From NCBI GenBank assembly GCA_009773565.1, contig WSXY01000002.1, forward strand, positions 124,001 through 188,000: a stretch of DNA of 64,000 bases, in the 5' to 3' direction. Of the stretch, positions 28,859 through 49,032 are shown piece after piece. A program made the position numbers and the translations under genes. The notes beneath the pieces were generated by a model. It did not search any database. It worked only from the letters and a program-made list of their open reading frames with translations, and was not told where the DNA came from. How positions within the stretch are numbered: the first letter of the stretch is position 1; the number at the start of each line of letters is the position of its first letter. Source of the stretch: Actinomycetota bacterium. GTDB lineage: Bacteria; Actinomycetota; Coriobacteriia; Anaerosomatales; Anaerosomataceae.

Positions 28859-30121
28859 ATGAGGTTGAAGAGGGAGACACGCTCCGGCAAGCATGTCTCG
28901 CGGCTCCTGCTCATCGTGGTAGCGCTTGCTGCGCTGGCGATTGCGCCAGCCGCATCATCGGCAATCACGATTGAACTTGGCGGCGAGGTCTTCAAGGACA
29001 AGTGCACGCCTTGTCACGCTGATATTTCGAAGCTCAAGGAAAGCAACATCATCTTCACGCACGGTAGTCATATCAGTTACGCGTGTAGCAGCTGCCACAC
29101 CGAGTACCCGCACCGTCCTCAGGGCACGCTTCGCGTTGTCATGAAGGACTGCTTCAATTGCCACGCGCTCAATCACGGGCCGCAGGGTCTCATGGCCACC
29201 GGCGTCTGCACCGATTGCCACAAGCCGGGGCCGACCAAGCGTCGTCCGGTGTCGCACATCGAGGACTGGAAGAACAAGCCCCACGTGGCACCGTCTCTCA
29301 CCAGCCTGCAGACGGAGTGCGCTATGTGCCATACGCAGGCGCAGTGCGACACGTGTCACCTGAAGACAGGTGTCCAGTGGACGCCCGCGGTGCCGTTCAC
29401 GTATAACCCGGGCAACGGCTGCCAGGCATGTCACGGCAACCCGAACCTCACCAAGCTGGCCGGTGGGCTTATCAAGTCCTACCAGGTTTCCGGCATCGAG
29501 GCGTCCGCGCACAGGGACATCACCTGCACCCAGTGCCATCCTGACTTCAACTACGGTGCCGGTGCGCCCAAGCCCAAGACCAACCTCTGGAACGTCAACG
29601 CGGGCCTTGCCTGCGGTGACTGCCATGATCACGACGGTCAGACGGCCGCGTACAACAAGTCGATCCACGCCGAGGGTATCGCCCGCGGCAACCTGAAGTC
29701 AGCCACGTGTGGCTCCTGCCACGGCGGGCACGACATCCCCCTGACGAAGGATAACCAGGAGGCTTCAGAGACCGTTCACGCTTCATCGGAGAAGATGTGC
29801 GGCGGTTGCCACAAGGACTACTACGACAGCTATGCTGACTACTACCACGGTGCTCCGTACAAGGCGGGCGCGAAGGATGCTCCCGCGTGCTGGCAGTGCC
29901 ACACCGCGCACGAGATTCAGCCGTCGACCGACAAGGCCTCGTCGACCTATCCGACGAAGCTTGCGGCGACCTGCGGAAGCGGAACATGCCATGACCAGCA
30001 CGGCGATGCTTCCGAGGCATTCATCAGGAACTCGGCGGGCATGATCCACGGCAAGAAGGACGCACGCGCAAACAATCCGGTCTTGAAACTCATTGGTTCG
30101 GTCTTCGGAGGCGGCTCGTAG
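28859..30121 (+). CDS. multihaem c-type cytochrome (12 CXXCH + 1 CX4CH)
   Basis: A 420-residue exported cytochrome with an N-terminal signal (residues ~12-35), twelve CXXCH motifs spread along the chain and a final CGSGTCH, a CX4CH spacing. Its C-terminal ~170 residues closely follow the preceding protein, including YYHGAPYKAGAKDAPACW and the closing MIHGK block, so the pair arose by duplication with an added haem-rich N-terminal part. The ATG at 28859 has AGAAGGT about eight bases upstream. It probably forms part of a haem wire with its neighbours outside the membrane. Confidence 0.87.
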   Translation: MRLKRETRSGKHVSRLLLIVVALAALAIAPAASSAITIELGGEVFKDKCTPCHADISKLKESNIIFTHGSHISYACSSCHTEYPHRPQGTLRVVMKDCFNCHALNHGPQGLMATGVCTDCHKPGPTKRRPVSHIEDWKNKPHVAPSLTSLQTECAMCHTQAQCDTCHLKTGVQWTPAVPFTYNPGNGCQACHGNPNLTKLAGGLIKSYQVSGIEASAHRDITCTQCHPDFNYGAGAPKPKTNLWNVNAGLACGDCHDHDGQTAAYNKSIHAEGIARGNLKSATCGSCHGGHDIPLTKDNQEASETVHASSEKMCGGCHKDYYDSYADYYHGAPYKAGAKDAPACWQCHTAHEIQPSTDKASSTYPTKLAATCGSGTCHDQHGDASEAFIRNSAGMIHGKKDARANNPVLKLIGSVFGGGS

Positions 30122-30125
30122 GAGC

Positions 30126-31718
30126 ATGGCATCTAACCGGGTAGCAAGGACAATCGTGTTGGCGGTGGTCGCCTTTGTATCGACCGCCGCCTTCCTCGCG
30201 GCCCCCATTCTTCCGGCCCGAAGCGAAGTCGACGCTCCGCCGATCGACGTGACCGCTCCGGTCACCGCCAGCAACTGCACACCATGTCACGCGGTCATCG
30301 GGGCGTCTCGCAATCCGCGGGTGCTGTTCAATCATGCGTCGCACCTCATCGCAGATTGCTCAGCGTGTCACTTCACGAATCCGCACGAGGCGGGCAAGAC
30401 GACGACTCCGCCCATGTCCTCGTGCTTCACGTGTCACGGTCTCACGCACGGTCCAACAGGTGTCATCGCGAGTGGCGAATGCATCGATTGCCACCCGAAG
30501 AAATACCCGTTGCGGCCCGTGAGCCACGTGAAGGACTGGAAAGTGAAGCCGCACGCCACCGCGAGCAAGGCAGGTGTGAACGGGTGTTTGCTGTGCCACG
30601 ATCCGGTCACCGGTTGCGACACATGCCACATCAAGGAGAACGTCAACGTCGGACCGATGCCGGCAATCTACCTCCGGACCGTCGGGGTTAAGCCCGATCA
30701 GCCCTCAGTCCTTGTCGACCCTGATGCGCCCGTCAGTATGAGCCAATGCGGGTTCTGTCATCCGGACATCGATACCTTCAAAGCGGGTCGCATCATCTTC
30801 AAGCACGAGGATCACCTGAAGCGCGACTACCAATGCACCGCCTGCCACCCGGTGTTCCCGCACCGACCGGCGAGCGTCGACAAGAACTCTATGCGCGCAT
30901 GCTACCGGTGTCACGGTCTTGAGCATGGCGCGAACGGGGCGGTCGCGACCGAGAAGTGCGAGGCGTGCCATCCAAAGGAGTTCAAGCTCACACCCGCGGA
31001 CCACACCGTCACCTTCCTGAGCGGGCAGCATAAAGAGCGCGCGCTTGCCGATGGTGGGTACTGCACCATGTGCCACAAAGCATCAGTTTGCGTGAAGTGT
31101 CACAACGGTGGCACGAAGCTTGCGAGCGGTAAGACCAGCCTCAAGGTTATTCCGGCAGATCACCGCAAACCGCAGTGGTCATCACAGCACGGACCGCTGT
31201 TCCTCGCGCAGAAGGGTCAGTGTGCGATCTGCCACGATTCGAAGTCGTGCCAGACGTGTCACCAGACGACGATGCCGCACCCGACCGACTGGCTTGCGGC
31301 ACACGCCAAGAGCAAGGGCCTTTCCGGCCCGGACTGCAAGGTGTGTCATAAGGAGCGCGAGGCGTGTCAGGACTGTCATCACGCGACCGTACGGTCGGTG
31401 GAGTTGGTAGCGAAGAACTGCGTGAAGTGTCACCCGGAGATGAAGAAGGAGCCTGCGACCAGCATCAAGAATGCAGGGCTTGCAGAGCACGCGGTTCACT
31501 TCAAAGTCGCCGAGAAGAAGGGTAAGCCGTACGTGTGCGATGACTGTCACATCGGCTTCGGCAGCACCGGCGTCCGGGTCGACAACCCGCTCACCGGGCC
31601 GCACGACATGCGTGGCTGCTACGATTGCCACGGAAGTCTGGATATCCGCAACATTCTCATCGCGCCGTGGCCGGGTTCGGAACTCTGCCGCCGCTGCCAT
31701 ACCGACCTCAAGCTGTAA
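30126..31718 (+). CDS. 20-haem c-type cytochrome, exported
   Basis: A 530-residue protein with an N-terminal signal (residues ~8-32) and twenty CXXCH motifs, about one per 26 residues; no other fold is visible. Repeated blocks such as ADCSACHFTNPH and YQCTACHPVFPHRP, each followed by a HG-containing CXXCH, suggest internal duplication. ATG at 30126 with GGAG four bases upstream, only four bases after the previous cytochrome stop. Such haem density is typical of long-range electron wires in extracellular or periplasmic electron transfer. The partner and final acceptor are unknown. Confidence 0.88.
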   Translation: MASNRVARTIVLAVVAFVSTAAFLAAPILPARSEVDAPPIDVTAPVTASNCTPCHAVIGASRNPRVLFNHASHLIADCSACHFTNPHEAGKTTTPPMSSCFTCHGLTHGPTGVIASGECIDCHPKKYPLRPVSHVKDWKVKPHATASKAGVNGCLLCHDPVTGCDTCHIKENVNVGPMPAIYLRTVGVKPDQPSVLVDPDAPVSMSQCGFCHPDIDTFKAGRIIFKHEDHLKRDYQCTACHPVFPHRPASVDKNSMRACYRCHGLEHGANGAVATEKCEACHPKEFKLTPADHTVTFLSGQHKERALADGGYCTMCHKASVCVKCHNGGTKLASGKTSLKVIPADHRKPQWSSQHGPLFLAQKGQCAICHDSKSCQTCHQTTMPHPTDWLAAHAKSKGLSGPDCKVCHKEREACQDCHHATVRSVELVAKNCVKCHPEMKKEPATSIKNAGLAEHAVHFKVAEKKGKPYVCDDCHIGFGSTGVRVDNPLTGPHDMRGCYDCHGSLDIRNILIAPWPGSELCRRCHTDLKL

Positions 31719-31742: not shown

Positions 31743-32741
31743 GTGAAGCTGAATCTGTCTACTCGTTCGCTCGATATCGCCGTCAAGATCGTCGGGCTCC
31801 TTGTCGTGGTAGCGCTCGTCTATCTCGGCTTCACCATCTGGTCCAATGAGCGCTCCCAGCAGGACAACAGCGTCACCGGGCGCGCAATCGAGAGCCTCAT
31901 CAAGGTCGTCAAGGAGAAGCCCCGCGACCCAGGTGCCCGTATCTTGCTGGCCCAGGCGTTCGCGTCGGCTGGACGTATGGACGAGGCGGTCGAGCAGTTC
32001 CAGAACGCCCTCAAACTGGATACAAAGAACTCTTCGGCGCTTGAAGGCCTCGGCCTGATCGCCATGCAGCGCGAGGAGTGGCGCACGGCTGAGGGCTACT
32101 GGCGCCGCATCGTTGAGAACCTGAAGTCCGGTCAGTACGCCAGCCAGGACCAGCGACTGGAGCGCGCGTATTACTACCTCGGCCTCACCCTCATCGAGCT
32201 CAAGGACTATCAGAACTCGGTGCTCTTCCTAAAAGAGGCCCTTCGGATGCGACGCGACGCGGCTGACACCCACTACGCGATCTCCGTGGCGTATCGCGAA
32301 CTCGGTTCGGTGTCCAATCAGCGCAAAGAGCTGGAGACCGCACTCTCGTTCATTCCCACGCTTCCCGAGGCGAACTACGACATGGGCCTGCTGCTGCTCG
32401 CGGATGACGATCAGGCCGGAGCGGCTGAGCTGTTCCGTAGATCCGTTGATAATGCGCCGGGCCGCGCCGAACCGATGACCGAACTCAGCAAATTCGGATC
32501 TGTCACCGAGCGGCTCGCCAAGGCGAAGTCGCTTATGAAGAGCGACCCGAAAGCTGCGCTTATCGAGGCGCGCATCGCGATTGCCATCGATCCCCAGAAC
32601 CTCGAAGCGGCACGGCTCGTCGCAGCTCTACTTGAGGGACTAGGGAAGTCAGAGGACGCAGTCGCGGCGTACGAGCGTGTGCTGACGATCTCGACAAACG
32701 ATACTGCCGCAGCAGAGGCCATAAAGCGCCTCGCCAAGTGA
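31743..32741 (+). CDS. membrane-anchored tetratricopeptide-repeat protein
   Basis: A 332-residue protein with one N-terminal membrane segment (residues ~15-33) and then TPR repeats across the rest (ARILLAQAFASAGRMDEAVE, SSALEGLGLIAMQREEW, RAYYYLGLTLIELKDY, THYAISVAYRELGS and others). TPR domains bind partner proteins. GTG start 24 bases after the 20-haem cytochrome; 28 bases before the NHL gene. Its place inside the cytochrome operon suggests a scaffold or assembly factor for the complex. Membrane orientation is not certain. Confidence 0.82.
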   Translation: MKLNLSTRSLDIAVKIVGLLVVVALVYLGFTIWSNERSQQDNSVTGRAIESLIKVVKEKPRDPGARILLAQAFASAGRMDEAVEQFQNALKLDTKNSSALEGLGLIAMQREEWRTAEGYWRRIVENLKSGQYASQDQRLERAYYYLGLTLIELKDYQNSVLFLKEALRMRRDAADTHYAISVAYRELGSVSNQRKELETALSFIPTLPEANYDMGLLLLADDDQAGAAELFRRSVDNAPGRAEPMTELSKFGSVTERLAKAKSLMKSDPKAALIEARIAIAIDPQNLEAARLVAALLEGLGKSEDAVAAYERVLTISTNDTAAAEAIKRLAK

Positions 32742-32769
32742 CGAACGACGTGAAGATGGAGCGTGAAGC

Positions 32770-34302
32770 GTGACCGAATCTAGTCGCAGGCTGTCCAACT
32801 ATCTCGCCGAGCGCGAGCGAAGTGGTCGCGCCAAGAAGATCATCGCGCTGGCGCTCCTAGCATTGCTGCTGCTCCTTCTCGTGTGGATGACCCTTAACTA
32901 CCTGCAGAACGGACGCGTCGTAATCCCGTTCATTACAACGACGACCGAGGCTGTCGTTCCTCCCGAGTATCTCTATTCCATTGCGGGTCCTGAGGGAGCA
33001 GATGCTCTGACCCAGCCCATCGGAGTCGCCGTCTCCGCAAGCGACCGTGTCTACATCGTCGACAACAAGAGCGCGACGGTCCGCTGCTATGACGTGGACG
33101 GACGGTACCGATTCTCCTTCAAGACCATCAATGACGGCGCGAACAAGGCGCTTGTCCAGCCCGCACGCGTCGCCGAGGGTCCCGGGGGCGAGATCTGGGT
33201 CACCGACCGCAGACTCCGGTCTATCTACATCTTTGATCGTGACGGCGCCTTCAAGCGGAAGTTCGCGCCGGAAGGCGACGCACCAGAGGATTGGGCGCCT
33301 ATCTGGGTGTCGTTTGACGCCCAGGGCAACACATATGTTTGCGACATCGGCTTGACCTCAGAGCATCAGGTGATCGTCTACGACTCAAGCGGAGTCGAGG
33401 TCGCACGCTTCGGAAAGACCGTTCAGGCAAAGCGGATGCTTGAGGCGCCGGGCGGATTCTACTACCCCAACGGAGTTGCCGTCGCCAAGAACGGAGACAT
33501 CTTCGTCTCCGACAGCAACAACCGACGCGTCCAGGTCTTCGACAAGGCCGGTGCGTTCAAGTACATCATCTCGACGTCGGGTACGCCTCGCGGCGTTGTC
33601 ATCGACAAGGAGCAGCGACTCTACGTCGTTGACGCATTCGCGCACACGATCGATATCTACAACCTTCAGGGCAAGCGCATCGCCGGCTTCGGCGGCAATG
33701 GCGTTGAACTCGGGAAGTTCCAGTACCCGACCGACATCGCCATCGACAAGCGTGGTCGCCTGTTCATCTCCGATCGAGAGAACAACCAGGTTCAAGTCTG
33801 GGGTTGGCCGACCACCACGCTCATCCCGCCGATCGAGGTTCCCAAGACCCCGATGCAGTGGGTCATCTGCCTCTCGCCGCTCCTCCTGTTCTTGTTGCCG
33901 CTTCTGAGGCGCAAGCGCTCGTTTGTTGTCACCAGCGATTTCGTCGAGGGAATGGCGCTTGCGGAGATGATTCACCTCATGGTCGATCGTCGCTTCAAGT
34001 GGCTTGTTCCTGCAGCCGAGATGGACTCATACGAGGGCAGGATTCTTGAGGGCGTGAAGCTTGGCGATCTCCTGGCGGGTACGGCTCACTCCGAGTCTGA
34101 TGTCGTGGAACTCATTGAGAAGACCGGTATCACACGTCCGACAGCCATCCTCCTTACGATGTCGCAGCGTGCTGGCAGACTTGCCACAGAGGACTCCGAT
34201 TTGCGCCGGTCCGCCCAGTCGATGGGCGTTGAAGTCTTCGATCGTATGACATTCGTCGACACCTTTGGTGGCAGGGCAGCGAGCACCAAGGATGCCGGGT
34301 AG
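32770..34302 (+). CDS. membrane NHL beta-propeller protein with C-terminal PIN-like cytoplasmic domain
   Basis: A 510-residue protein: a membrane helix (~22-44), an NHL-type beta-propeller (~70-360, repeats such as QPIGVAVSASDRVYIVD, YPNGVAVAKNGDIFVSD and YPTDIAIDKRGRLFISD), a second membrane helix (~366-388), then ~120 residues on the other side. That last domain (FVVTSDFVEGM through RAGRLATEDSDLRRSAQSMG) has the strand pattern of PIN-like nuclease folds, but the catalytic acids are not assured. A paralogue with the same order is at 43059. GTG start 28 bases after the TPR gene. It may be a docking or sensing module for the cytochromes. Confidence 0.75.
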   Translation: MTESSRRLSNYLAERERSGRAKKIIALALLALLLLLLVWMTLNYLQNGRVVIPFITTTTEAVVPPEYLYSIAGPEGADALTQPIGVAVSASDRVYIVDNKSATVRCYDVDGRYRFSFKTINDGANKALVQPARVAEGPGGEIWVTDRRLRSIYIFDRDGAFKRKFAPEGDAPEDWAPIWVSFDAQGNTYVCDIGLTSEHQVIVYDSSGVEVARFGKTVQAKRMLEAPGGFYYPNGVAVAKNGDIFVSDSNNRRVQVFDKAGAFKYIISTSGTPRGVVIDKEQRLYVVDAFAHTIDIYNLQGKRIAGFGGNGVELGKFQYPTDIAIDKRGRLFISDRENNQVQVWGWPTTTLIPPIEVPKTPMQWVICLSPLLLFLLPLLRRKRSFVVTSDFVEGMALAEMIHLMVDRRFKWLVPAAEMDSYEGRILEGVKLGDLLAGTAHSESDVVELIEKTGITRPTAILLTMSQRAGRLATEDSDLRRSAQSMGVEVFDRMTFVDTFGGRAASTKDAG

Positions 34303-34370: not shown

Positions 34371-34423
34371 ACTCCAGAGAACGATCCCGGCAGGTCTCTT
34401 TGGAGCAACAGAATAGGCCGTTC

Positions 34424-34518
34424 GTCTCCGAGCCCCCGGACCTACAGCAATAGCCATGGTTCTCGGGCCGATAGGGTGCCACTGGAAACGGTGACGCCTC
34501 CCCACCTGGAAAGGAGAC
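34424..34518 (+). ncRNA. molybdenum/tungsten cofactor (Moco) riboswitch
   Basis: The leader RNA carries the features I recall of the Moco RNA motif. A closing stem GTCTCC (34424-34429) pairs with GGAGAC (34513-34518), CGAGCC directly follows the 5' strand, and the 3' core reads GCCTCCC, then CTGGAAAGG, before the closing stem. Comparison with the E. coli moaA leader from memory gives the same order of conserved blocks. It precedes a gene for a molybdopterin enzyme, so it most likely senses cofactor supply for formate dehydrogenase. Whether it prefers molybdenum or tungsten cofactor cannot be said. Confidence 0.85.
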
Positions 34519-34758
34519 AGCGCCCAGCCCCTGATAGCAGGGGGCTGTGACGCGTCAGCCCTGGGTAAGGGAGGCGATCGACAGACAGAATTCCGGTCAC
34601 ACACGCAAAGTATCCACGCGTGGGTGGACCGGTTTCTTGTTTTCCCCCCAGACGGTCATTGCACGGGAAAGGAGGTGGCGCCAGCAAGGTCGGTTTGGAC
34701 AGAAGCACTGCTCCTCACGTGGCATCTCGAAGGATCCACGGAACAGAGAGGGAAAGGT
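34519..34758 (+). promoter_or_regulatory. untranslated leader between riboswitch and formate dehydrogenase
   Basis: About 240 nt with no credible gene. It contains a hairpin AGCCCC...GGGGCT (within 34525-34546) right after the riboswitch, a longer imperfect stem built on CCGGTC (near 34592) and GACCGG (near 34627), and AGGGAAAGGT just before the ATG at 34759. The hairpins are candidates for the expression platform. No poly-U run is seen after them except TTGTTTT near 34637. Confidence 0.5.
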
Positions 34759-37700
34759 ATGGCTAAAGATAAGGAACACGAAGGGAAGTTCGAGCTTTCA
34801 CGGCGCGACTTCCTGAAGGCTGGCGCTGCTGCAGCCGTCGTGGGGGCAACCGGTGCTGACATGGTGGTCACCGCCTCACGCGCGGTGGCCGCGGACGTTG
34901 CCGCAACCTACACGACCACCTGTCCGTACTGCTCTGCGCAGTGTGGCCAGAAGGTCGACGTAGATGCGTCCGGCAACGTGCTCGACATCTACGGTGACCC
35001 GATCAACCCGACCAGCCGTGGCGGTCTGTGCTCTAAGGGCGCCGGTTCGTTCCAGCTGGTCAACAATGCTCGTCGTCTAGGCGTGCCAGAGCATACGGCA
35101 GCCGTTGACACGTTTGACTTCACCGGTGATACAGGTGGGAATGCGTCCGGCGTCGCCTGGAAGCGTACCGGCAACGAGGCCTGGGCTCCAATGGGCCTCG
35201 ATACTGCGTTCACGGAGATCGCAACGAGCCTGACGGCCATTCGTGGTACGGTCACGCCCGGCTCGACCGCAGCATCGAACGCGAGGACGGTCATGTTCTT
35301 CGGTTCTTCGCACATGAACCTTGAGCCGAACTACATCTACCGCAAACTCATCGCCGAGTTCGGTACGAGCCAGGTCGAGCACCAGGCCCGTATATGACAC
35401 TCGTCCACAGTGGCCGGTCTTGGCCGCACATTTGGACGAGGCGCGATGACGAACAACTGGGTGGACCTCGATAACTCGACGATGTTCTTCGTGTGTGGGG
35501 CAAACCCCGCCGAGAACCATCCCGCATCAATCGGGCACCTGAACACTGCACGGTTCGACGTGAACGCCCGTGGCAGGAATGCCGCGCTCGTCGTAGTCGA
35601 CCCCCGGCAGACCCGCACCGCCCGCATGATCAATTCCGGTTACGACTCGACCAACGTGAACGACATGCGGAAGCACGATCGCTTTGTCCGCATCCGTCCC
35701 GGAACGAACATCGCGTTCATCAACGGCGTGCTGAACTCCATCATCACGTGGATGTACGCCAACTCGACCAGCGACGCGGCGACGAAGTTCTTCGCGTGGC
35801 ATAACGGCACTGCGGCCGCTCACACCTCATACGGTCGTCAGTTCACGCCGGACGACGGCCACGAGATCAAGCACACGTTGACCCAGGTTGAGCTCACGGG
35901 TGCGACGTACACTGACGCACTAGCCGCAGTGACTGTAGCTCCGCTCTCCGGTGGATGGCCGAAGTACTGCGACTCTCGCGTAAAGGTCGACACCGCATCG
36001 GGCGACTACAAGCGTGTGAAGCTGACAACATCGACGGGTATCGCATTCAGCAACATGCCGGAGTTTGCGGCGAACATCGACGATCCGGATTGCGTCTTCC
36101 AGCTCCTCAAGACGCATGTGGCGAAGTACCCGGCGGCAACGGTCGCCGCGATCTGCGGTTGCACAGAGGCCGATATCGCTGCGGTTCGTGACGCGTTCAT
36201 CGCCAACAGCCGCTTCGCGAGTTCCGACTTCGCGGCCACTTCGGCCACGATCACCGCTGCCGGCTACCGCACCACGTGCATCATGTACGCGATGGGTGCC
36301 ACGCAGTTCACGAGCGGCTCACAGGGCGTTCGGTCCTACGCCATCATCCAGACCCTCATGGGCAACATGGGACGTGCGGGTGGCGGCATCAACGCTCTCC
36401 GTGGTATTCACAACGTCCAGGGTTCGACGGATATGGGATTGTTGTTCGACCTCATTCCGGCGTACTCGGGTAACCCGGCTGAGGATCAGTCGTACGCTGA
36501 CTACTCGAACAAGTTGTTCGGCAACCGCGTTAAGGCTACGACCCTCAACGGAGTCACGCCTACGGTAACAAAGAGCGCGTACACCGAAGCCGACATCGAG
36601 TGGCAGCAGCGCGGGTTCTACAACATGACCCGTGAGTGGTTCGGGAGCCGTACCATCACAGGTGCAACAACCGACGCCGCAACGTTTGACAAGCTGTATG
36701 ACTGCTGGCCCAAGGGTAACGGCGTTCAGCACATTGCGGGCTTCCGCCGGATGTGTGCAACTGAGGCCGACGTACCGGGAGCCGAGTACCACTACACACC
36801 CGTAGTTGGTGCTCCGCGCATTGCGGCTGCAGTTGTGTGGGGCCAGAACCCCGCCGTCACCGAGCCGAACCAGGGTGCGGTCCGCGCAGGGCTCGAGAAC
36901 CTCGACCTGCTCGTGGTCACAGACATGTTTGCGACCGAGACCGCACAGTGCAAGCGCAAGGCGACGGGCGTCACGTATCTTCTCCCCGCATGTTCGCATG
37001 TTGAGGAAGCCGGATCTGTGGCCAGCTCGGGACGATGGATCCAGTGGCGCGATCGTGCGTGCGCACCGAAGGGCAAGAGCAAGAGCGACCTCGAGTTGCT
37101 GCACCGCTTTGCCTACGCACTCAATACCGCGGGAGCGTTCAGCCACATCAAAGCACAGTGGGCTGGCACGACGATCGAGACGTCGGATGCGTACAACGTG
37201 CTCTGGGGAAAGTATGGTTGGGACGGCACAGGTAGCTTCGAGGCCGTGAGCGGCCGCGACTACGAAGGTGTTCTCCTCACTGGCAGCGAGTACGTGGCTG
37301 AGCAGATCTTCAAGGAGATGTGCGCTCCGCTCGACGGCTATTCAGCGGTCGGAGCCCATGCAGATTTCGTTGGTGGTCACAAGGGCACCATGTGGATCTA
37401 CTCCGGTGCGAACGTTGCTCACGGAGGCGCCTACAACCCGGATAGCAAGCTGGATGGTTACCCGGCGATCAATGCGATCAAGGCCAACTCCATGGTGGTT
37501 ACTGGCCACGCCGCGACCACCTGGGCCTTCAACGCAGATACGGGCAAGATTTCGCGTGCCTCTGCCTCCAGCACCCTCCCAGAGAACACACCAGTTCTCG
37601 TCACCTACGATTACGGCAACGCGGTAAGCGGTTGGACTGCTGTGGCCAATGAAAGCGTCACACTGGTCGGCACGACAGGGGTCACGCTCTCCTACAAGGC

Positions 37701-38649
37701 GCTTGCGCCTGCATGGGCGAAGTGGGATCTTGCGAACCGCGCGAAGGTGCGCAAGGGCGCGCCAGAGCACGCCGGCCCATCACTCCAGTTCCATCGCTAC
37801 GGCTGGGCATGGTTGCTCAACCGACGCGTCATGTACAACAACGGCGAGCTTCCTGGCGAAGTGGCCGATGTCTTCGTCGCTCCCGGCTATCTCGCGCGTT
37901 TGTGGACCATCGGCGGCGGCAACACGCTCGCTGACTGGTCATGGTTGTACCGTACGTACAACCAGCTCAAGGACGTTCCTGATGCTGGCACGGGTGTCGG
38001 AGGGAACCACGTGTTCCCCGGACGCTTCCCCGCATACACGGAGCCCTATGAGACTCCGTACGACGGTACCACTACGGCTCCCAACCTCGTGGCGACGTGG
38101 GGTCGTAACACCTCGGGAACCGTTAGCGGCGTGGTTGGCACCACGGGCAACCTGGTCTTCCCCGATACACTCAGGGGTACGGCGGCGAACTTCCCGCTGG
38201 TGCTCACCACCATCCGGTGCGTTGAGCACTTCCAGGGTGGGCCCATCACTCGCAACAACCCGTGGAACGTGGAGCTTGAGCCCGATCCGTGGGTCGAGAT
38301 CAACTCAGTCGATGCTGTTGCAAAGGGCATCAAGGATGGCGACTGGGTCAACATCACCACCGCCCGCGGCGATAGCCTCACGAGCCAGAACGGCCGTACG
38401 ATCAAGGACGGCGGCGCCCTCGATGCCGGAACCTGGAATCGGGGCTTCAAGGCTCGTGTTGGTGTCGGTCCGCTGGCAAACCAGCGTGTCGCACCCGGCA
38501 CCGTGGCGATTCCCTGGCACTGGGGCGACCGTGGCCTCGGCGTGGGAGCTCGTGCGAACGACCTGTGTATCGATGCATGGGACGTGAACACCATGATTCC
38601 CGAGTACAAAGCCTGCTTGTGCTCAATCGAGAAGATCGTACAACCGTAG
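34759..38649 (+). CDS. selenocysteine formate dehydrogenase, catalytic subunit (Mo/W-bis-MGD, TAT-exported)
   Basis: One gene interrupted by an in-frame UGA at 35395-35397, read as Sec213. The flanking residues ARI-U-HSSTVAGL and then TFGRGAMTN are those of the FdnG-type active site, and a SECIS hairpin follows at the usual distance. The product is 1,296 residues, longer than typical FdnG (~1,015). The N terminus has a twin-arginine signal SRRDFLK (14-20), then the [4Fe-4S] ligands C55, C58, C62 and C91; later come molybdopterin-binding blocks and a C-terminal dinucleotide-binding domain. It oxidises formate outside the membrane. The ATG at 34759 has AGGGAAAGG upstream. A conventional gene caller would report two broken genes here. 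Confidence 0.93.
35395..35427 (+). promoter_or_regulatory. UGA(Sec) codon and SECIS hairpin
   Basis: UGA at 35395-35397. A 6-bp stem, GTGGCC (35410-35415) with GGCCGC (35422-35427, one G-U pair), closes the loop GGTCTT. The GGUC loop begins 18 nt after the UGA, the same distance and loop sequence as in the E. coli fdhF SECIS as I recall it. This directs SelB-dependent selenocysteine insertion; selA, selB and selC are not in the window. Confidence 0.85.
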
Positions 38650-38666
38650 AAAGGGGGTGGTGAGTG

Positions 38667-39551
38667 ATGAGTACTATGGCGATTCTCCAAGATGTCGATA
38701 AGTGCATGCGCTGCAACGGTTGTGTTGTCAGCTGCAAGCGGACGTGGAAGATGAAGGCGCTCCAGTTCGGTGTCCACAAGACGGCGCCGGATCAGCGTGT
38801 CATCATAAAGTCCCAGAAGCGCGTCGACATGGGTCCGTTCATGCGCTACAGCTGCTGGCATTGCAGTAACCCGCCCTGCGTGAAGCGCTGCCCGTTTAGC
38901 GCAATCACCAAGAAGACCAATGGCGCAGTGACAATCGATCACGAACTCTGTACGCCCGGTGGAACGAATGCAGCCGGCGTCACGTGCACGAAGCAGTGCC
39001 AGGTCGACTGTGGTCGCGGTGGCTATCCGAAGATCGGTATGGGTAGCGACAACTATCCCACCTCCGACAAGGCCTACAAGTGCACGATGTGCTACGGACG
39101 TGCGGGAGCTCCGCTTCCGCTTCCGGCCAGTCAAACTAACAGTGGAGATTTGATCGCGGCCTATGGCCCGGCTCTCCCCACCAAGGCGACGACCGCCGAG
39201 ATCACCGCCGTTCCGCAGAAGGCGCATCAGCCTTCATGCGTGTACACGTGCCCGGCGAAGGCAATGTCATGGGACACGAGGGACAACATCATCGCGTACA
39301 TGAACAACGCCTCCAACCGGTTCATCTCAGGTCAGGGTGACGGCTCGGTCTTCTGGGCCAGCCGCAAGTACCTGCTCATCGCACCGAAGGCCGACCCGTT
39401 CGTGGAGGATCACATCACTCCGCTTATGTCGAGTCTGGTCTCTGGTCCTTTCGCGAAAGCAGCACTTGTGCCTACACTGCTCGCGGGCGGCCTTGTAGCC
39501 GTCATCGCACGTCGCCAGCGCTTGGCTGACGAGACTATGGGAGAGGTGTGA
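38667..39551 (+). CDS. formate dehydrogenase iron-sulfur subunit (four [4Fe-4S] clusters)
   Basis: A 294-residue FdnH/HybA-type ferredoxin protein. Four cysteine groups are visible: CMRCNGCVVSC, CWHCSNPPCVKRC, a third with CTKQCQVDC, and a split fourth with CTMC and CVYTCPAKAM. A C-terminal hydrophobic helix (~260-285, ALVPTLLAGGLVAVIA) should anchor it in the membrane. It would take electrons from the Sec subunit to the membrane. ATG at 38667 with AAGGGGGTG about nine bases upstream; a GTG one codon earlier is possible. No cytochrome b gene follows directly; a hexahaem cytochrome does. Confidence 0.92.
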   Translation: MSTMAILQDVDKCMRCNGCVVSCKRTWKMKALQFGVHKTAPDQRVIIKSQKRVDMGPFMRYSCWHCSNPPCVKRCPFSAITKKTNGAVTIDHELCTPGGTNAAGVTCTKQCQVDCGRGGYPKIGMGSDNYPTSDKAYKCTMCYGRAGAPLPLPASQTNSGDLIAAYGPALPTKATTAEITAVPQKAHQPSCVYTCPAKAMSWDTRDNIIAYMNNASNRFISGQGDGSVFWASRKYLLIAPKADPFVEDHITPLMSSLVSGPFAKAALVPTLLAGGLVAVIARRQRLADETMGEV

Positions 39552-40744
39552 TGGCTGTGAAGAAGCGTTTTCTGCTTGTTGCGGTCTTCGCGGTGGCCGT
39601 TGCGGTTCTTCTGGCCCCTGGCGTTGCGTTCGCGAACTACTCTATCCACGGTAGCTACACGATGAGCACCGATGCGTGCGCCGGTTGTCACCGTGCGCAC
39701 ACTGCGGCTAGCAGCATCACGTGGACGAGGAACGATGGCTCGACCGGTGGCAGTGCGCTGTTGCTCGGAACCTCGACCAGCACCGATGATTTCTGCTACA
39801 CGTGTCACGGTACGGCCATGCTCGGTGCCGATACCAACGTCTTTGACGGCAAGTTCGAGGCCGATAGCGGTCTGAACTCTGCCGGTCAGAACCTCAACGG
39901 CGGCGGTTTCAACCCGGCGATGTTCCCGACGCAGCACTATCCTAACAACACGACGTGGGTCGCCTATGGCGGCGGCACGACGGGCCGTAGTGGCATCATC
40001 AGCACCGGTGGTGAGCAGGTCGTTATCGGTTGCACCGTCTGCCATGATGTCCATGGTTCGTCGAACTACCGTCTGTTGAAGGACGTCGTCAACGGTGTGA
40101 CGGTTGGTGGCTACACCGGCGATTCGTACAACCCGACACCGACCCCGTGGGTCATTTCGTCGGAGCCTGGATACCCGACCACCGGCTGGCTGCTTCACGA
40201 GCCGGGCGGCGTGCAGGTTGCCGGTTACACACCGGACTACACTGACGCCCGCTACGCCAAGGCACCGGGTCTGGACCAGACAAAGGGTATCAGTGGTTGG
40301 TGTGCGTCGTGTCACACGCAGTACAACACGTGGTCCTCGATGGGAACATCGCGCACCGCAAGCGTGTATGACTCGAACGACGGCTTCGGCCTCGTGACGC
40401 GTCACCGCCACCCGGTGAACGTGCCGCTCAGCAACTACCAGGGCGCTCGTTCGCTCGTCATCACGGCTGGTGTGCTCCCGCTCGCTCACGACAATGCGGC
40501 GGACTACAGCGGCCTGAAGAACACGTCATCTGACTGGATCGACTGCCTGACGTGCCATGTGGGCCACGGTTCTTCGGCTCTCATGACCGGCTATGCGGCA
40601 GTTGCGGATTCGACGGATCCTCTGCCTGACTCAAGCTACGGTCTAACCCCTGGCGACGGTCTCGGCAGCGTTCCGCCGGACGATGGCAACGCACTGCTCC
40701 GCGGTAACAACCGCTTCGCGTGTGAAGCCTGCCACAACAAGTAA
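39551..40744 (+). CDS. hexahaem c-type cytochrome, exported
   Basis: A 397-residue protein with a clear signal peptide (KKRFLLVAVFAVAVAVLLAP, cleavage after AFA) and six CXXCH motifs (CAGCH, CYTCH, CTVCH, CASCH, CLTCH, CEACH). The motifs are widely spaced by Gly/Ser/Thr-rich segments, unlike the dense cytochromes of block A. Distal histidines such as HRAH and HDVHG resemble the doubled-CXXCH/c3-like pattern. The ATG at 39551 shares its first base with the last base of the upstream subunit's stop (TGATG), so translation is coupled. It is the likely electron acceptor for this formate dehydrogenase. Confidence 0.87.
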   Translation: MAVKKRFLLVAVFAVAVAVLLAPGVAFANYSIHGSYTMSTDACAGCHRAHTAASSITWTRNDGSTGGSALLLGTSTSTDDFCYTCHGTAMLGADTNVFDGKFEADSGLNSAGQNLNGGGFNPAMFPTQHYPNNTTWVAYGGGTTGRSGIISTGGEQVVIGCTVCHDVHGSSNYRLLKDVVNGVTVGGYTGDSYNPTPTPWVISSEPGYPTTGWLLHEPGGVQVAGYTPDYTDARYAKAPGLDQTKGISGWCASCHTQYNTWSSMGTSRTASVYDSNDGFGLVTRHRHPVNVPLSNYQGARSLVITAGVLPLAHDNAADYSGLKNTSSDWIDCLTCHVGHGSSALMTGYAAVADSTDPLPDSSYGLTPGDGLGSVPPDDGNALLRGNNRFACEACHNK

Positions 40745-40752
40745 GCGAGCAG

Positions 40753-42228
40753 ATGACGTCGAAGATCAACGTCAGACGCGACGGGAAGGGTCGGGACATC
40801 CCCGGCCCTTCCCCTTCGCGTCGGGGCACAACTGTTGCGGTCGCCGTGACGGTCCTGGTGTTCGCGCTTGCTGCACAGTTCGCGGTCGGCATTGAGGCGC
40901 GTAGAACGCTCTCAGCTGAGGTTCTTGCCGCCGCCGCAGCGGTGTTCGGGGCGGTCGGGATGCTCATCGTCAGCGGTCCCCTCCGTGGCCGGCAGGTCAG
41001 CAATCCGACGGGGATGCTCGTCTCGCTCGTACTCGGTGCGTTCGGTCTCTTCGGGGCACCGTACATGGTGTTCCTCCACCGCTACTCGGATGCTCCTCCC
41101 GGGAGCGAAGTGCTCTTCCTCACCACGGCCGCCTGGTCGGCTATTCTCGTGTTGCTCACCCTCCGTCGGCGTACGTCGGACATCATCGTGTTCGCCGGTG
41201 CGCTGCTTATCCTCGGCGGTATCGCCGGAATCGTCGGCAACTGGGAGCGGCCCAGCTCGTTCTCACCCTTTGTCCGCTATGTCGTCGAGGAGCGCTGGAT
41301 GCTTCTCGCCGGTGTGGCATGGGCACTTCTCTGGCAGCAACTCGGCCGCGCGAAAGAGCGTAGCGACGTTGACGGTGTAGCGATTCCTGCCGCTGTTGGC
41401 GGAATACTCGCCGCCGTGCTCACGGCCTTCGCTCACGCCAATGATGTGAACATCCCGGCCGCGCTTTCGCATGGTGGCTTCTGGCTCTACTCCGTTGCAG
41501 CGATCGCCTCTGGTGCCGCGATGCTGCTCGCGCTTCGCACAGGTGGGGTTCGTGTTGTCGCGGGTGCGGTTGCCTTGCCTGCGGTCGCACTCACGGTTTT
41601 GACCCTCATCGAGCAGGCGACGGGCGCTTTTGGACCGCAGCCGATCCTGCTCATCCCGGCCTTCGGAGGCGCGGTGGTCGCACTGGCCGGCGCGACGCTC
41701 GTTTGGCTGCCCGACACGGGCGAGACGACGGAAGGCGTGCGCTCGGCCTGTCGCTTTGCGCTAACGATCTCCGCGGCTGCAGTCCTGGCAGCGTTCATCG
41801 GCCTTGCACTCCCCGCACTTCAGGGCCGTGCGACCGGCTTGCGCACGAGCGGTGCGTCCTTCGACGCCACGTTCGTCTTGCGCGGCATCGAAGTCGCGGG
41901 GCCGTGGATCGCCGTTGGCATCACGGTCGCTGTACTTGGCATGGTGCTTTCTCGTGTGGCCACCCGTGCGCGCGCGCTCGCGCTCGCGGCCGCGCTTCTC
42001 GCATGGCCGCTCGTGTGGGCGACCCCGCTACGCACGCTGACGAGGTTCATCCCGTCGGAAGTGCAGGTCGACTTTGGAAGCGAATTCGCCGCGATCGCGT
42101 TCTCCCGGCTCCCTGTGCCAGCCGTCTTTGTGGCACTTGGTGGCGCGGCGGGCGCGCTCGCGTTACTGTTGGTCTGTCGAAGAGAACCCCGGGCGCCCGA
42201 TGTCCAGGCGAGTCCTATCGAGAGGTGA
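40753..42228 (+). CDS. polytopic membrane protein, unknown function
   Basis: A 491-residue protein with roughly 12-13 hydrophobic helices in alternation and short loops. No transporter, cytochrome b or cytochrome-assembly motif was recognised. A few membrane-embedded or loop histidines (FLHRYSD, AHANDVN, LSHGGF) could bind haem or quinone, but this is only a possibility. ATG at 40753, eight bases after the hexahaem cytochrome; the lipoprotein gene follows five bases later. In this operon it occupies the place where a quinone-reacting membrane subunit would be expected. Confidence 0.75.
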   Translation: MTSKINVRRDGKGRDIPGPSPSRRGTTVAVAVTVLVFALAAQFAVGIEARRTLSAEVLAAAAAVFGAVGMLIVSGPLRGRQVSNPTGMLVSLVLGAFGLFGAPYMVFLHRYSDAPPGSEVLFLTTAAWSAILVLLTLRRRTSDIIVFAGALLILGGIAGIVGNWERPSSFSPFVRYVVEERWMLLAGVAWALLWQQLGRAKERSDVDGVAIPAAVGGILAAVLTAFAHANDVNIPAALSHGGFWLYSVAAIASGAAMLLALRTGGVRVVAGAVALPAVALTVLTLIEQATGAFGPQPILLIPAFGGAVVALAGATLVWLPDTGETTEGVRSACRFALTISAAAVLAAFIGLALPALQGRATGLRTSGASFDATFVLRGIEVAGPWIAVGITVAVLGMVLSRVATRARALALAAALLAWPLVWATPLRTLTRFIPSEVQVDFGSEFAAIAFSRLPVPAVFVALGGAAGALALLLVCRREPRAPDVQASPIER

Positions 42229-42233
42229 TTCCC

Positions 42234-43058
42234 GTGAAGCGATTTGTAAGCGTGTTCCTCGCGCTGGCACTGCTGTCTTCGGCCATGATGATTGGTGGCT
42301 GTAAGCAACGAAAGGTGACAGTCAAGACCGGCGAGATCGTGATCTGCACGGCCGGCGAGATCATCTCGGACAACACCAAGGAGCTTCAGGTTCCCGAGAA
42401 GGACGTGGCCAAGTACTCGGTCACGACGCGGGTGACGACGTGCGAGGACCACGGTAACGTTGCGTCGTTGTACGACGATGCACAAGCGGCCATAGCCGCA
42501 GGCGACCTGGATGCCGCCGCTGCCAAGCTGCGCGAGCTCCTGGCTCTCAATCCAACGTACAAGCTGGCCTCATCACAGCTCAAAGACATCGATGCCGGCA
42601 AGAAGCCCGCGAAGGACCCCGGGTCATCGAGTGGTACGACGACGAGCACGCCAAAGCCCGATGACTCTACCGCTGCGGTTTCGAACCTCGTGAAGTACGT
42701 GCCGGACACGGTCGTCGGATACTCGGCGCAGGGAATCATCGCCGACCCCGCCTCGATTGCGCGCACCTACCTCCCGACATCGGGCAACGCAGATCAACTT
42801 GTGATCATGGCCGATCAGACGGTGGACGCGAAGTCCGCTGCAACGACGATCGCGACGCTCAAGACGGTGTATCCCGGCTCAGGAGCTGCGGTGACGATCG
42901 GCAGCAAGACGGGGTACTTCGGGGTGCGAGACGGGTTCGCCTTCGTCGTAGTCGCCGACGGCCCCATCGTGGTTTCGGTCGAGTTGCACGCCAAGACGGG
43001 CAAGGCCATTGACCTCAAGGCTGCTGCTCTGAAGGTCGCCTCGGCGATCGTTCGATAG
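42234..43058 (+). CDS. lipoprotein with a short TPR-like segment, unknown function
   Basis: A 274-residue exported lipoprotein: signal helix then the lipobox MIGGC at about residues 18-22. A TPR-like stretch (YDDAQAAIAAGDLDAAAAKL) is followed by a Ser/Thr/Pro/Lys linker near 120-140, then a globular C-terminal domain of ~130 residues with no recognised family. I place the start at GTG 42234 because AGAGG lies about eight bases upstream; a GTG at 42225 is too close to that site. It stands between the polytopic membrane protein and the second NHL protein, with no gap before the latter. Confidence 0.75.
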   Translation: MKRFVSVFLALALLSSAMMIGGCKQRKVTVKTGEIVICTAGEIISDNTKELQVPEKDVAKYSVTTRVTTCEDHGNVASLYDDAQAAIAAGDLDAAAAKLRELLALNPTYKLASSQLKDIDAGKKPAKDPGSSSGTTTSTPKPDDSTAAVSNLVKYVPDTVVGYSAQGIIADPASIARTYLPTSGNADQLVIMADQTVDAKSAATTIATLKTVYPGSGAAVTIGSKTGYFGVRDGFAFVVVADGPIVVSVELHAKTGKAIDLKAAALKVASAIVR

Positions 43059-44576
43059 ATGGCGCACGTGGCACCTGGCGAGACCAGCGACACCGGGTGG
43101 AAGCGCTTCTTGCCGCGCTACCGCTACCAGCGTCGCCGCTACATCCTCTGCGGTGTGGCGCTGACACTTGTGGCTCTCGCCGCTTTGGCGCTCGCGTTGA
43201 TGCCGCCTACACAGGCCTCCGTGCCGGGCGTCGGGGGCATCTCAGATGCGCTCCGTGTGCGGCCGCAGTACGCGTTCTCGTTTCCCGCGTCCGGTGCGCA
43301 GCCCCTCATTCGCCCCATCAGCGTCGTCGCGGCGAAGGATCGCGTCTACGTCGTTGACTCGGGCGTAGGTCTCATTCGCGTCTTTGACGATCGTGGTGTC
43401 GACCGTGCGGTGATCGGGAGCGGCACGCTCGATGTTCCTGTGTACGCCGCGCGCGATGCGGCGCGTGGCATTCTCTACGTCACCGATCGCAAACTGGCGA
43501 CCGTCTTCAGGTTCGATGAGACCGACGGGTCTCTTCTCGGCCCGCTCGTGCCAAAGCCCGCCACCGAGGGCACAGGGAGTGCGGAGTCGACTGCATGGGC
43601 GCCACTCGGTATTGATGTTGCCGACGACGGAACCGTATGGGTGAGTGACGTGCTCGCGCGGCATCGCGTGCTGGTCGTGGAGCCCGACGGGACGATTGTT
43701 CGAGAGGTCGGGGGTGCGCAAGCGGCGGGGGAGACGACGGGCGTTGCGGTCGCTCTCGACTATCCAAACGGTGTGAGTGTGGGCGCCAATGAGGTCTGGG
43801 TCTCGGACAGCAACAATCGGCGGGTCGTGGTCTTTGGACGGGACGGCTCGTTCAGGCGCGTTCTTAACGTCGACGGTCTGGCGCGCGGCATCGATTTCGT
43901 CCCGGGCGAGAGTGCGGGCACGGGTGCCGACTCTGAGCTTGTTGTCGTAGCCGATGCACTCGCGCAGGATATCGCCGTATGGGACGCCTCGGGCGAGGTT
44001 CTCGGCAGATTCGGCGGGCCGGGGCCCAGTGCCGGCCAGCTCGCATTTCCCAACGACGTTGATTCGGACGTCGACGGTAGGCGCCTCTATGTCGCCGATA
44101 CCGGAAATCGCCGTGTACAGGCGTGGATCTGGACGGACGCAACGGGATCGCGAGGGCCGCTCGGCACTTTGGTCCAATCGCTGGATGCGTCCGGGCGAGT
44201 GCCGTACGTTCTCGTGGCGATCGTACTGGTGCTGGTCGCCGTCGGCCTTGTAGTGACGGCCCTTGCGCCCCTTACTTTTGTTGTGACCGCCGATGTGGTC
44301 GCCACGATGACCCAGCGCGGCCGCATGGCGCGTCTGGCCGGTCGCGGCCGAAGGTTCGTGACCACGCCAGCCATTGCTGAAGCCGCAGTGCTGCCCGCCT
44401 CGATCGTGGTTGAGGATTCCGGCATCGACGAGCCCGGCGAAGCGCTCCGTGCCCTTGTGCGGCGTCACCGCATTCTCTTGACCGAGGACCCGCTTCTCAT
44501 GCGCGATTTCCAGGCAGGAGGCGCGGATGTATTCAATGCGACCACATTCGCCGAGGTGTTCAACCGGCGTCGCTGA
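43059..44576 (+). CDS. second membrane NHL beta-propeller protein with C-terminal PIN-like domain
   Basis: A 505-residue paralogue of the protein at 32770: membrane helix (~30-50), NHL-type propeller (~70-370, e.g. YPNGVSVGANEVWVSDSNNR and FPNDVDSDVDGRRLYVAD), second helix (~385-410), then a ~95-residue domain. The last domain ends RHRILLTEDPLLMRDFQAGG, again like the closing half of PIN-like folds. It starts at the base after the lipoprotein stop. The occurrence of the same architecture at the end of both cytochrome blocks suggests a shared part in assembling or docking each chain. Confidence 0.75.
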   Translation: MAHVAPGETSDTGWKRFLPRYRYQRRRYILCGVALTLVALAALALALMPPTQASVPGVGGISDALRVRPQYAFSFPASGAQPLIRPISVVAAKDRVYVVDSGVGLIRVFDDRGVDRAVIGSGTLDVPVYAARDAARGILYVTDRKLATVFRFDETDGSLLGPLVPKPATEGTGSAESTAWAPLGIDVADDGTVWVSDVLARHRVLVVEPDGTIVREVGGAQAAGETTGVAVALDYPNGVSVGANEVWVSDSNNRRVVVFGRDGSFRRVLNVDGLARGIDFVPGESAGTGADSELVVVADALAQDIAVWDASGEVLGRFGGPGPSAGQLAFPNDVDSDVDGRRLYVADTGNRRVQAWIWTDATGSRGPLGTLVQSLDASGRVPYVLVAIVLVLVAVGLVVTALAPLTFVVTADVVATMTQRGRMARLAGRGRRFVTTPAIAEAAVLPASIVVEDSGIDEPGEALRALVRRHRILLTEDPLLMRDFQAGGADVFNATTFAEVFNRRR

Positions 44577-44617
44577 CGACTGGCACGGCGACTGCTAGTA
44601 TGTAACTCCAGTTACAA
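44573..44617 (+). promoter_or_regulatory. promoter and second copy of the TGTAAC-N4-GTTACA operator
   Basis: CTGACG (44573-44578), 17 bases, TAGTAT (44596-44601), with the perfect inverted repeat TGTAAC-TCCA-GTTACA (44601-44616) touching the -10 box. The repeat equals the one at 34354-34369 except for the spacer base. Its position over the start site again suits repression. It drives the 1,405-residue surface protein. Confidence 0.65.
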
Positions 44618-44670
44618 CTGATGTCCAACTGCCTTGATGGCGACCGCTTGCGTCCTGAGGACGAGGTGTG

Positions 44671-47600
44671 ATGAGAAGCCTGACGCGCCGCTTGTCGGCG
44701 ATACTCTCTGTGACGCTTGCATTGGCGATTCTGCCGGTGCAGTCGCTTGCAATCCCCACTGCCGTCGCTGCCACTTCGACGATCGCTCCCGCATCGATAC
44801 CGAGCGTCGATCTCAAGTGCGTTACCTTTGTGACCGACACAATCGCCTTCGCGGCCGGGGCCGGTGGCACCATCATCAAGACGACCAACGGTGGCGATAA
44901 CTGGACACCACTTGCCACAGGTACTACGATCGCCGACTTCCGCGGCATCGCATTCTGGAGTGCCACCAGCGGCATCGCCGTGACGTACGACCGCAAGGTC
45001 TACGGCACGAGCAACGGCGGGTCGACGTGGTCTCTGGTGAACGCAGATATGACTCAGTACGCCCAGGGTACGCCGGCCATCGGCATGAGCGCGGTTGCTG
45101 CGCTTCCGGCGAACCCGGGAGTAGCGTTCCTCGCTGGCGGTGATCCAAATCCGATCGATGACACGCAGGAACCGGCAACGGTGTGGAGGTCGGCTACCTC
45201 CGGGGCGAACTGGGGTCAGAAGCCGATTCTTGAGGACATACGTCATCCTGAGATTCTAGGGGCCGAGATTACCCTAGTCGGCGAGGGAGAGTTCCTCGGC
45301 ATCGACTTTATCGACGCGCAGCGTGGGTGGGCAGTCGGTGACGACCTCTACTCTGCTGACGCGACCGCGCCGGTCTACGCGACCACCAACGGTGGCATCA
45401 ACTGGACGCAGCAGTCGTTCGGTCTGCCTCTCCGCCTCACCGGAGTCTCCTTCGCAAGCGCTACGGCCGGCGCTATCGTAAGCGACGAAAGCCGCGTCTT
45501 CCGTACCACCAACGGCGGCAGCACCTGGGTCGAGGGGACGTCACCGGTCACCTCGTCGCTCAGTGGCGTCGCACTGCTCGACGCATCGAATGGCTGGGCC
45601 GCGGGGGCGAGCGGGACACTGCTACGCACCACTAACGGCGGTGCGTCGTGGGTCTCAGGCACAAGCCCGACGTTCCAGGACCTCTACGCGATCAACTTCT
45701 CCGGTACCCATGGCATTGCCGTCGGCAAGTTCGGCACGGTCGTGATTACGGATGACGGCGTCAACTGGAGAGTTCCCAACCCTGATACGACCGGTCCGAC
45801 GATGACCTCGCTCAGCTCATCGACGCATCCCGTTGAAGCGACGTGGTACCGCTCTGGCAGCGCGACGGTGTCCTGGACGGCGACTGACTCATCCGGCGTG
45901 ACCGGCTACTCCTACGTGTTCGACACATCGCCGGGGACAGTTCCGGATACGATAAGCGAAGGGGCCTCGACTACGACGTCGCCGACGTTGACGAGCGGCC
46001 TCAGATACTTCCACGTGAGAGCGGTCGATGCATTCGGCAACTGGGGTGAGACGACCCACCGCGCGATCAAGGTTGATACTGCGCCTCCGTCCACAGGCGA
46101 CAATGCGCTGGCTGCGTACGCTGCAGCGACCGTCATAACCCTCACACCGACGGATGCGCTCTCCGGTGTTGCGAACACGTACTTCGTGCTCGATGGCGTG
46201 CCCGGTACCGGCACAAGCGTCGGTGTGTCCACCGAGGGCGTCCACGCACTCGACTACGCCTCGGTCGACGTGGCCGGTAATCGCGAGGCCACGACGACGG
46301 TCAGCTTCACGGTTGATATGAGCGGTCCGTCGATGACCACGATCACATCGTCCACACACTCTTCGCCTGACGCATGGTATTCGAGCAACGACCCGGCGTT
46401 CACCTGGACCGCGACAGACGCGTACTCCACTGTCGCCGGCTACTCATACTCGCTCGACACGTCACCGGCGACGACGCCCGACACGTTCTCCGAGGGCTCG
46501 GCTGTCTCCAAGAGTTACACGAACGTGGTCGATGGCGTGCGGTACTTCCACATTCGCGCCGTTGACTCGCTTGGCAACTGGGGCGCGGCGACTCACCGCG
46601 CGATTCGTGTCGACACCACGCCTCCGTCCACGACCGATAATCACCTCCCGGCGTACACGGGAACCGCCGTGATCGCGCTCACGCCGACCGACGCGCACGC
46701 CGGCGTGGCGAACACCTACTACTCGCTCGACGGCGTTCCCGGCACGGGCACGACGGTTTTCGTGCCCGCTGAGGGCGCTCACGTGCTGGAGTACGCCTCG
46801 GTCGATGCGGTCGGCAATCGCGAAACCACGGTAACAGTCGATTTCAGAATCGACCTTACGGGACCGTCCCTCACGTCGCTGACGTCTTCGACCCACCCTT
46901 CGTCGAGTACGTGGTACTCGCACAAAGATCCCGCTTTTGCCTGGAGCGCAACCGATCCGGGGGGAGTGGCCGGCTACTCGTACCTGCTCGACGAGGTGTC
47001 CTCCACTGTTCCGCCTGAGACGAATCTCGGCTCCGCAGAGGCGACATCGCTCGCCAACATCACTGACGGCACGTGGTACTTCCACATCCGGGCGGTTGAT
47101 TCGGGTGGAAACTGGAGCGGTGCGAGCGTTCTGCCGGTCAACATCGATACGACCGTGCCGTCAACCACCGACAACGCTGTTAGCACCTACACATCGACCG
47201 CGGTGATCACGCTGACGCCAACCGACGCGTCCTCAGGGGTGGCGAACACGCACTTCGTGCTCGATGACGTGCCCGGCACCGGCACCACGGTACTTGCGTA
47301 CACCGAGGGCCCGCACAAGCTGGACTACGCCTCCGTTGACGCAGCCGGGAACCGCGAGGGCACGACAACTGTCGGTTTCCTAGTCGACAGCACCGGTCCG
47401 TCGATGACCACGCCCACATCCACCACGCATTCTTTGCAGGACGCATGGTATCGGAGTAACGACCCCGCGTTCGCCTGGACCGCGACTGACGCGTACTCTA
47501 CCGTCGCTGGCTACTCATACGTTCTCGACACGTCACCGGTGACGACGCCGGGTACGCTCTCCAGGGGCTCGGCTATCTCCACGACGTACGCAAATGTCGC

Positions 47601-48888: not shown

Positions 48889-49032
48889 GCAGGGAAGTGC
48901 CTCCGACGTGCAGAAATATCCCCAGATGAGGGTGCAGATGTCGTTGCCTCGTCGTATACTCTGCGCAGGGGTTTCGCGGCAGGCTTCCGGCAGACGCCTA
49001 AAGCCGCATCAGTGACAGTCCGGGATGGTGTA
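48889..49032 (+). promoter_or_regulatory. intergenic region before the propeller cytochrome
   Basis: Contains a -10-like TATACT (48955-48960) without a good -35 box, and a small hairpin GGCA...TGCC just after the previous stop. No copy of the TGTAAC inverted repeat is present. Confidence 0.35.

Follow-up and report, generated by a model that had tools for sequence, protein, structure and literature searches.

The window, that is, the whole stretch of 64,000 nucleotides that was analysed, carries a gene for the alpha subunit of a formate dehydrogenase (FDH), which is interrupted by an in-frame TGA and surrounded by genes for multiheme cytochromes. The features of the locus are as follows.

28859-30121, + strand: 12-heme cytochrome c (CxxCH count; syntenic in relatives)
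30093-31718, + strand: 20-heme cytochrome c (CxxCH count), adjoining the 12-heme gene; syntenic
31743-34302, + strand: TPR membrane protein and NHL-propeller membrane protein (Pfam), upstream of the riboswitch; syntenic
34414-34531, + strand: Moco (molybdenum/tungsten cofactor) riboswitch RF01055 in the fdhA leader (Rfam)
34759-38649, + strand: fdhA, FDH alpha subunit, predicted selenoprotein of 1296 aa with TAT signal, 4Fe-4S site and bis-MGD domains
35395-35397, + strand: in-frame TGA for selenocysteine (Sec), residue 213, with His214 next (alignment to solved FDHs; conserved in relatives; TGC in two paralogues)
35402-35440, + strand: bacterial SECIS hairpin (fold, sub-threshold SECIS_3 match, synonymous constraint, stability scan)
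38664-39551, + strand: fdhB, iron-sulfur beta subunit; cysteines for four [4Fe-4S] clusters, membrane helix at the C-terminus; syntenic
39548-40744, + strand: 6-heme c-type cytochrome (6 CxxCH, signal peptide, Paired_CXXCH_1); syntenic in relatives
40753-42228, + strand: polytopic membrane protein with about 13 transmembrane helices (TM), without conserved His or assigned family
42234-52038, + strand: downstream part of the cluster (small lipoprotein-like protein, second NHL protein, 1406-aa surface protein, 13-heme cytochrome)

The operon and its surroundings

The order 12-heme, 20-heme, TPR, NHL, riboswitch, fdhA, fdhB, 6-heme, 13-TM, lipoprotein-like and NHL is conserved in relatives, including EMTCatB1, in a comparison that reached as far as the second NHL gene. 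The riboswitch scored 71.2 bits against a gathering score of 36, has a Mo/W-related gene downstream and was found upstream of the orthologous fdhA in all 10 relatives tested; together with the surrounding operon, it adds to what an earlier note on this DNA had described.

The best NCBIfam matches of FdhB were FDH3_beta and FDH-beta, both sub-threshold, and its membrane helix lies near residue 262. No gene for a cytochrome b gamma subunit (FdnI) was found beside fdhA, and the 6-heme cytochrome is the probable direct electron acceptor, judging from the adjacency of its gene. The 13-TM protein was considered as a hidden cytochrome b and ruled out, since the alignment contained no conserved His. 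It is conserved beside the FDH in relatives, with the motifs NWERPSSFSPFVR and IPSEVQVDFGSEF, and had no Pfam or NCBIfam match; a fold search gave a weak DMT-transporter-like match from a low-confidence model (pLDDT 68).

The two NHL-propeller membrane proteins (32770-34302 and 43059-44576) flank the FDH operon; past the membrane helices, the C-terminal part of both appears PIN-like by eye, with no Pfam match in that part. Further downstream, the 1406-aa surface protein (44668-48888) has repeats and, by eye, a cell-wall-binding-like C-terminus, and the 13-heme cytochrome (1008 aa, 49012-52038) closes the cluster.

The alpha subunit and its relatives

When the TGA at 35395-35397, the sole in-frame stop, is read as selenocysteine, 34759-38649 translates into a protein of 1296 aa, with an expected size of about 130 kDa, followed by a stop. 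Translation table 11 instead gives two open reading frames, 34624-35397 (257 aa) and 35410-38649 (1079 aa), as the earlier note had recognized when it described one selenoprotein seen as two broken genes. The splitting that it expected of standard annotation thus occurs; calling the enzyme hidden overstates the case, as its orthologue in EMTCatB1 has already appeared in print as a formate dehydrogenase with high expression (PMC7943316).

The alpha subunit contains the Pfam domains TAT_signal, Molybdop_Fe4S4, Molybdopterin and Molydop_binding. Its best NCBIfam match was TIGR01553 (formate-DH-alph; E 6.7e-121), with 404.8 bits against an equivalog cut-off of 814.2; therefore, we file it as a formate dehydrogenase of the superfamily and not as an FdnG equivalog. 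Expanded loops are probably part of the reason for this low score. Comparison with solved structures placed the Desulfovibrio formate dehydrogenases as best matches, closely followed by E. coli FdnG; residue 213 aligned with the active-site Sec/Cys of solved FDHs, confirming the proposed Sec position of the UGA. The catalytic residues U213-H214 and R547 (in NALRG) and the N-terminal 4Fe-4S cysteines 55/58/62/91 are present. The protein thus combines the Sec-His pair, catalytic Arg, 4Fe-4S cysteines and bis-MGD domains of FdnG/FdhA-type respiratory FDHs, and its gene has an in-frame UGA at the Sec/Cys position of a known family, which is one of the marks of a selenoprotein gene. The excess of about 280 residues over FdnG claimed earlier was measured as 281 (E. 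coli FdnG, 1015 aa, 1kqf_A); the extra residues are scattered among several loops, and window-specific pieces at 897-983 make up the largest share. The alpha subunit was the sole PF00384 (Molybdopterin-family) enzyme found in the genome (98.5% complete assembly).

A relative of the alpha subunit is encoded by 71 of 99 related Coriobacteriia genomes, with a TGA-containing match in at least 62 of the 71 (a hand count among the matches listed). The TGA is retained throughout the order. Among the same matches, two shorter paralogues that cover the residue-213 position without a TGA encode Cys at this site (TGC). A tree of 33 proteins grouped the enzymes of the order in a single clade (100/100), separate from the FdnG-type enzymes with Sec or Cys.

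In five relatives, the FDH alpha subunit contains an additional in-frame domain (about 285-315 aa) that is absent from close sister enzymes. It lies at these positions:

Locus L131, 2248-3120: inserted domain
Locus L132, 2408-3280: inserted domain
Locus L133, 2144-3097: inserted domain
Locus L134, 4504-5406, - strand: inserted domain
Locus L135, after a site equivalent to window-protein residue ~576: inserted domain

The insertion site corresponds to residue ~164-171 in four relatives and to ~576 in one, where the domain is homologous. The domain matched no Pfam family and, among the 99 genomes, was present in FDHs only; its AlphaFold model (pLDDT 86) resembles GH43/GH62 five-bladed propellers. 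Horizontal transfer of the propeller between two relatives, considered because the domains are 69% identical versus 55% for the host core, was not supported, since the host N-terminus is equally 69% identical. One contig (C316 of G029, loci L043 and L134) holds two UGA-containing FDH genes in tandem, one with the inserted propeller and the other apparently without it at that site.

The hairpin after the UGA and the selenocysteine machinery

The earlier note had placed a hairpin at 35410-35427, with a GGUC loop 18 nt after the UGA. The hairpin itself was borne out by fold and constraint; its upper stem (35410-35416/35421-35427, 7 bp) closes a loop that reads GUCU, 19 nt past the UGA, or GGUCUU once the closing G-U pair is opened. 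A longer lower stem is formed by CUCGUCC/GGACGAG. From the UGA onwards, 46 nt fold with a dG of -23 kcal/mol (z -4.1); 0 of 200 shuffles and, within the gene, 0 of the 1235 other in-frame positions were as stable.

The same codons are under constraint at the RNA level. The window was compared with 28 relatives, giving 29 sequences. For the 11 codons downstream of the TGA that are invariant and synonymously free, the excess codon identity averaged 0.41, compared with 0.084 gene-wide (z 7.3), a value reached by 0 of 100,000 random draws. No other part of the gene is as strongly conserved at synonymous sites, apart from stretches overlapping this one, and the rare codons GGA and CGA are retained at sites pairing with TCG and TCC. 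The hairpin after the TGA is real, beyond chance. The SECIS prediction that had been proposed as a check returned a match to Rfam SECIS_3 (RF01989; 33.6 bits, E 1.9e-4) that stayed below the gathering score of 63; all 10 relatives tested had matches as well, with 31-47 bits. According to a review, many bacterial SECIS elements are unlike those of E. coli; therefore, missing the curated score is not defining in itself. The hairpin fits the bacterial SECIS rule as quoted in PMC13188914, as do those of 26 of 26 distinct relatives.

The genome encodes selA (C16:22000-23358), selB (C16:18991-20865), selD (C16:24695-25612) and tRNA-Sec (selC; anticodon tca, found by both Rfam and ARAGORN), grouped within 11.5 kb on contig C16. 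Hence, a lack of selenocysteine machinery, which the earlier note had named as grounds for refutation, does not apply. SelD (G000:C16:24695-25612, L130) carries its own in-frame TGA at the usual position, so the genome has at least two selenoproteins. Across the relatives, selA was present in 54 and absent from 8 genomes with a UGA-containing FDH, versus 15 and 22 for genomes without one (Fisher p 2.5e-6, a value that overstates independence because the genomes are related). For the 8 of 62 UGA-FDH genomes without selA, assembly gaps are the likelier cause, since several of them have selB fragments at contig ends.

These data bear on two ways in which the gene might not encode a selenoprotein. 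The TGA could stem from faulty sequencing or assembly, or from a recent nonsense mutation, making the gene that of a Cys enzyme or a pseudogene, and the window does come from a 25-contig assembly. However, the TGA-containing match recurs in at least 62 genomes from independent assemblies, which speaks against sequencing error, the codons around it are constrained at the RNA level, and the frame is otherwise open across 1296 codons; we reject this explanation as vanishingly improbable. Alternatively, translation could stop at the TGA and restart at GTG 35410, yielding two polypeptides that assemble as a split enzyme, since both reading frames are open in table 11. Such a restart would fall inside the hairpin, with no visible Shine-Dalgarno sequence, and would lose the catalytic Sec-His pair, whereas selABCD are present and selA is associated with the UGA-containing FDH in relatives; we consider a split enzyme very improbable.

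Formate oxidation outside the membrane and known systems

Taken together, we propose, with a probability of about 0.9, that fdhA is an intact selenoprotein gene for the catalytic subunit of an extracytoplasmic respiratory FDH, predicted from its sequence to feed the co-encoded and neighbouring multiheme cytochromes. SelB would bind the hairpin after UGA-213 and bring Sec-tRNA, and the ribosome would insert Sec and read on. Judging from the TAT signal, the folded, cofactor-loaded alpha subunit would be exported together with the Fe-S beta subunit, which its C-terminal helix may hold in the membrane. Formate would then be oxidised on the outer side of the membrane, with Mo(W)-bis-MGD/Sec213/His214/Arg547 as the active site. 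Electrons would travel via the Fe-S clusters to the 6-heme cytochrome of the operon, on to the 12- and 20-heme cytochromes encoded nearby and finally to an acceptor outside the cell, for example Fe(III) or an electrode. The step from the beta subunit to the 6-heme cytochrome is suggested by the adjacency of their genes. As is typical of its family, the Moco riboswitch in the leader may couple expression to cofactor supply.

Extracytoplasmic formate oxidation feeding extracellular electron transfer is the best reading of the locus, and a very likely one. Neither formate-tetrahydrofolate ligase (FTHFS) nor FocA was found in the 98.5% complete, 25-contig assembly, which fits a respiratory rather than an assimilatory role outside the cytoplasm. 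Metal-dependent FDHs are reversible, and the enzyme might instead work mainly as a CO2 reductase, either to fix carbon, as proposed for cultured Anaerosomatales (PMC9686372), or to take up electrons from a cathode (PMC7943316). On a biocathode, the EMTCatB1 FDH genes 1c0408/1c0407 and the multiheme gene 1c0406 ranked among the top 10% of transcripts (PMC7943316), and a role there implies an enzyme run in reverse. The FDH MCL4079382-3, whose numbers fall inside the multiheme cluster MCL4079376-90, has been placed in CO2 reduction within the reductive glycine pathway (PMC9686372). However, the TAT signal places the window enzyme outside, which makes cytosolic formate production for carbon fixation unlikely and, if the enzyme of PMC9686372 is its orthologue, argues against a cytosolic role for that enzyme as well; moreover, with no FTHFS or FocA found, formate made outside would not obviously be assimilable in the host. 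We therefore regard a mainly reverse function as unlikely.

Formate oxidation outside the cytoplasm, the preferred reading, would be in keeping with cultured Anaerosomatales, which use formate for growth together with Fe(III) or sulfur compounds and in which no quinone was detected (PMC9686372). More tentatively, and with the balance of probability somewhat against it, we hypothesize that Anaerosomatales (OPB41) possess a distinct clade of expanded, exported Sec-FDHs that feeds the multiheme wire directly, without cytochrome b or quinone. Since the alpha subunit is the cell's only PF00384 enzyme, growth on formate would then depend jointly on selenium supply and the Moco riboswitch. The route from formate to cytochromes becomes testable in cultured Anaerosomatales through selenium or tungsten/molybdenum limitation.

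As selenocysteine biology, the enzyme is ordinary. The earlier note had called Sec use uncommon in actinobacteria, which is overstated: Actinobacteria are among three selenoprotein-rich phyla (PMC1794560), and a Sec formate dehydrogenase is already known there from the Sec fdnG locus of Corynebacterium aurimucosum (PMC2830990). Among bacterial selenoproteins, Sec formate dehydrogenase is the most widespread (PMC5029168). In C. aurimucosum, the sel genes adjoin fdnG, whereas in the window genome they lie on another contig.

Close counterparts are known within the order. EMTCatB1 locus L056 is syntenic with the window, with the TGA present, and its genes are presumably those numbered 1c0408-1c0406, going by their description. 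These were published as an FDH and a multiheme cytochrome, as in the window (PMC7943316), and the Parvivirga cluster MCL4079376-90 resembles the window by description (PMC9686372). The available portions of the two reports do not discuss selenocysteine, the riboswitch or the TAT location of the enzyme. Published work on relatives calls the enzyme of the cluster a molybdopterin oxidoreductase or formate dehydrogenase; here it is read as a selenoprotein with an export signal.

E. coli FdnGHI (1kqf) shares the Sec alpha subunit with TAT signal, the in-frame UGA with hairpin and the Fe-S beta subunit with membrane helix. The longer window alpha subunit, however, belongs to a separate clade, and a 6-heme cytochrome c is encoded where FdnI, a cytochrome b, would be. 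FdhABC3 of Desulfovibrio also employs a multiheme cytochrome c. As is predicted for the window enzyme, Desulfovibrio FdhAB and FdhABC3 (1h0h, 6sdv), the best solved sequence relatives, are periplasmic Sec or W enzymes; in contrast to them, the window has a longer alpha subunit with expanded loops, a cytochrome of a different family and an actinobacterial operon with 12- and 20-heme cytochromes.
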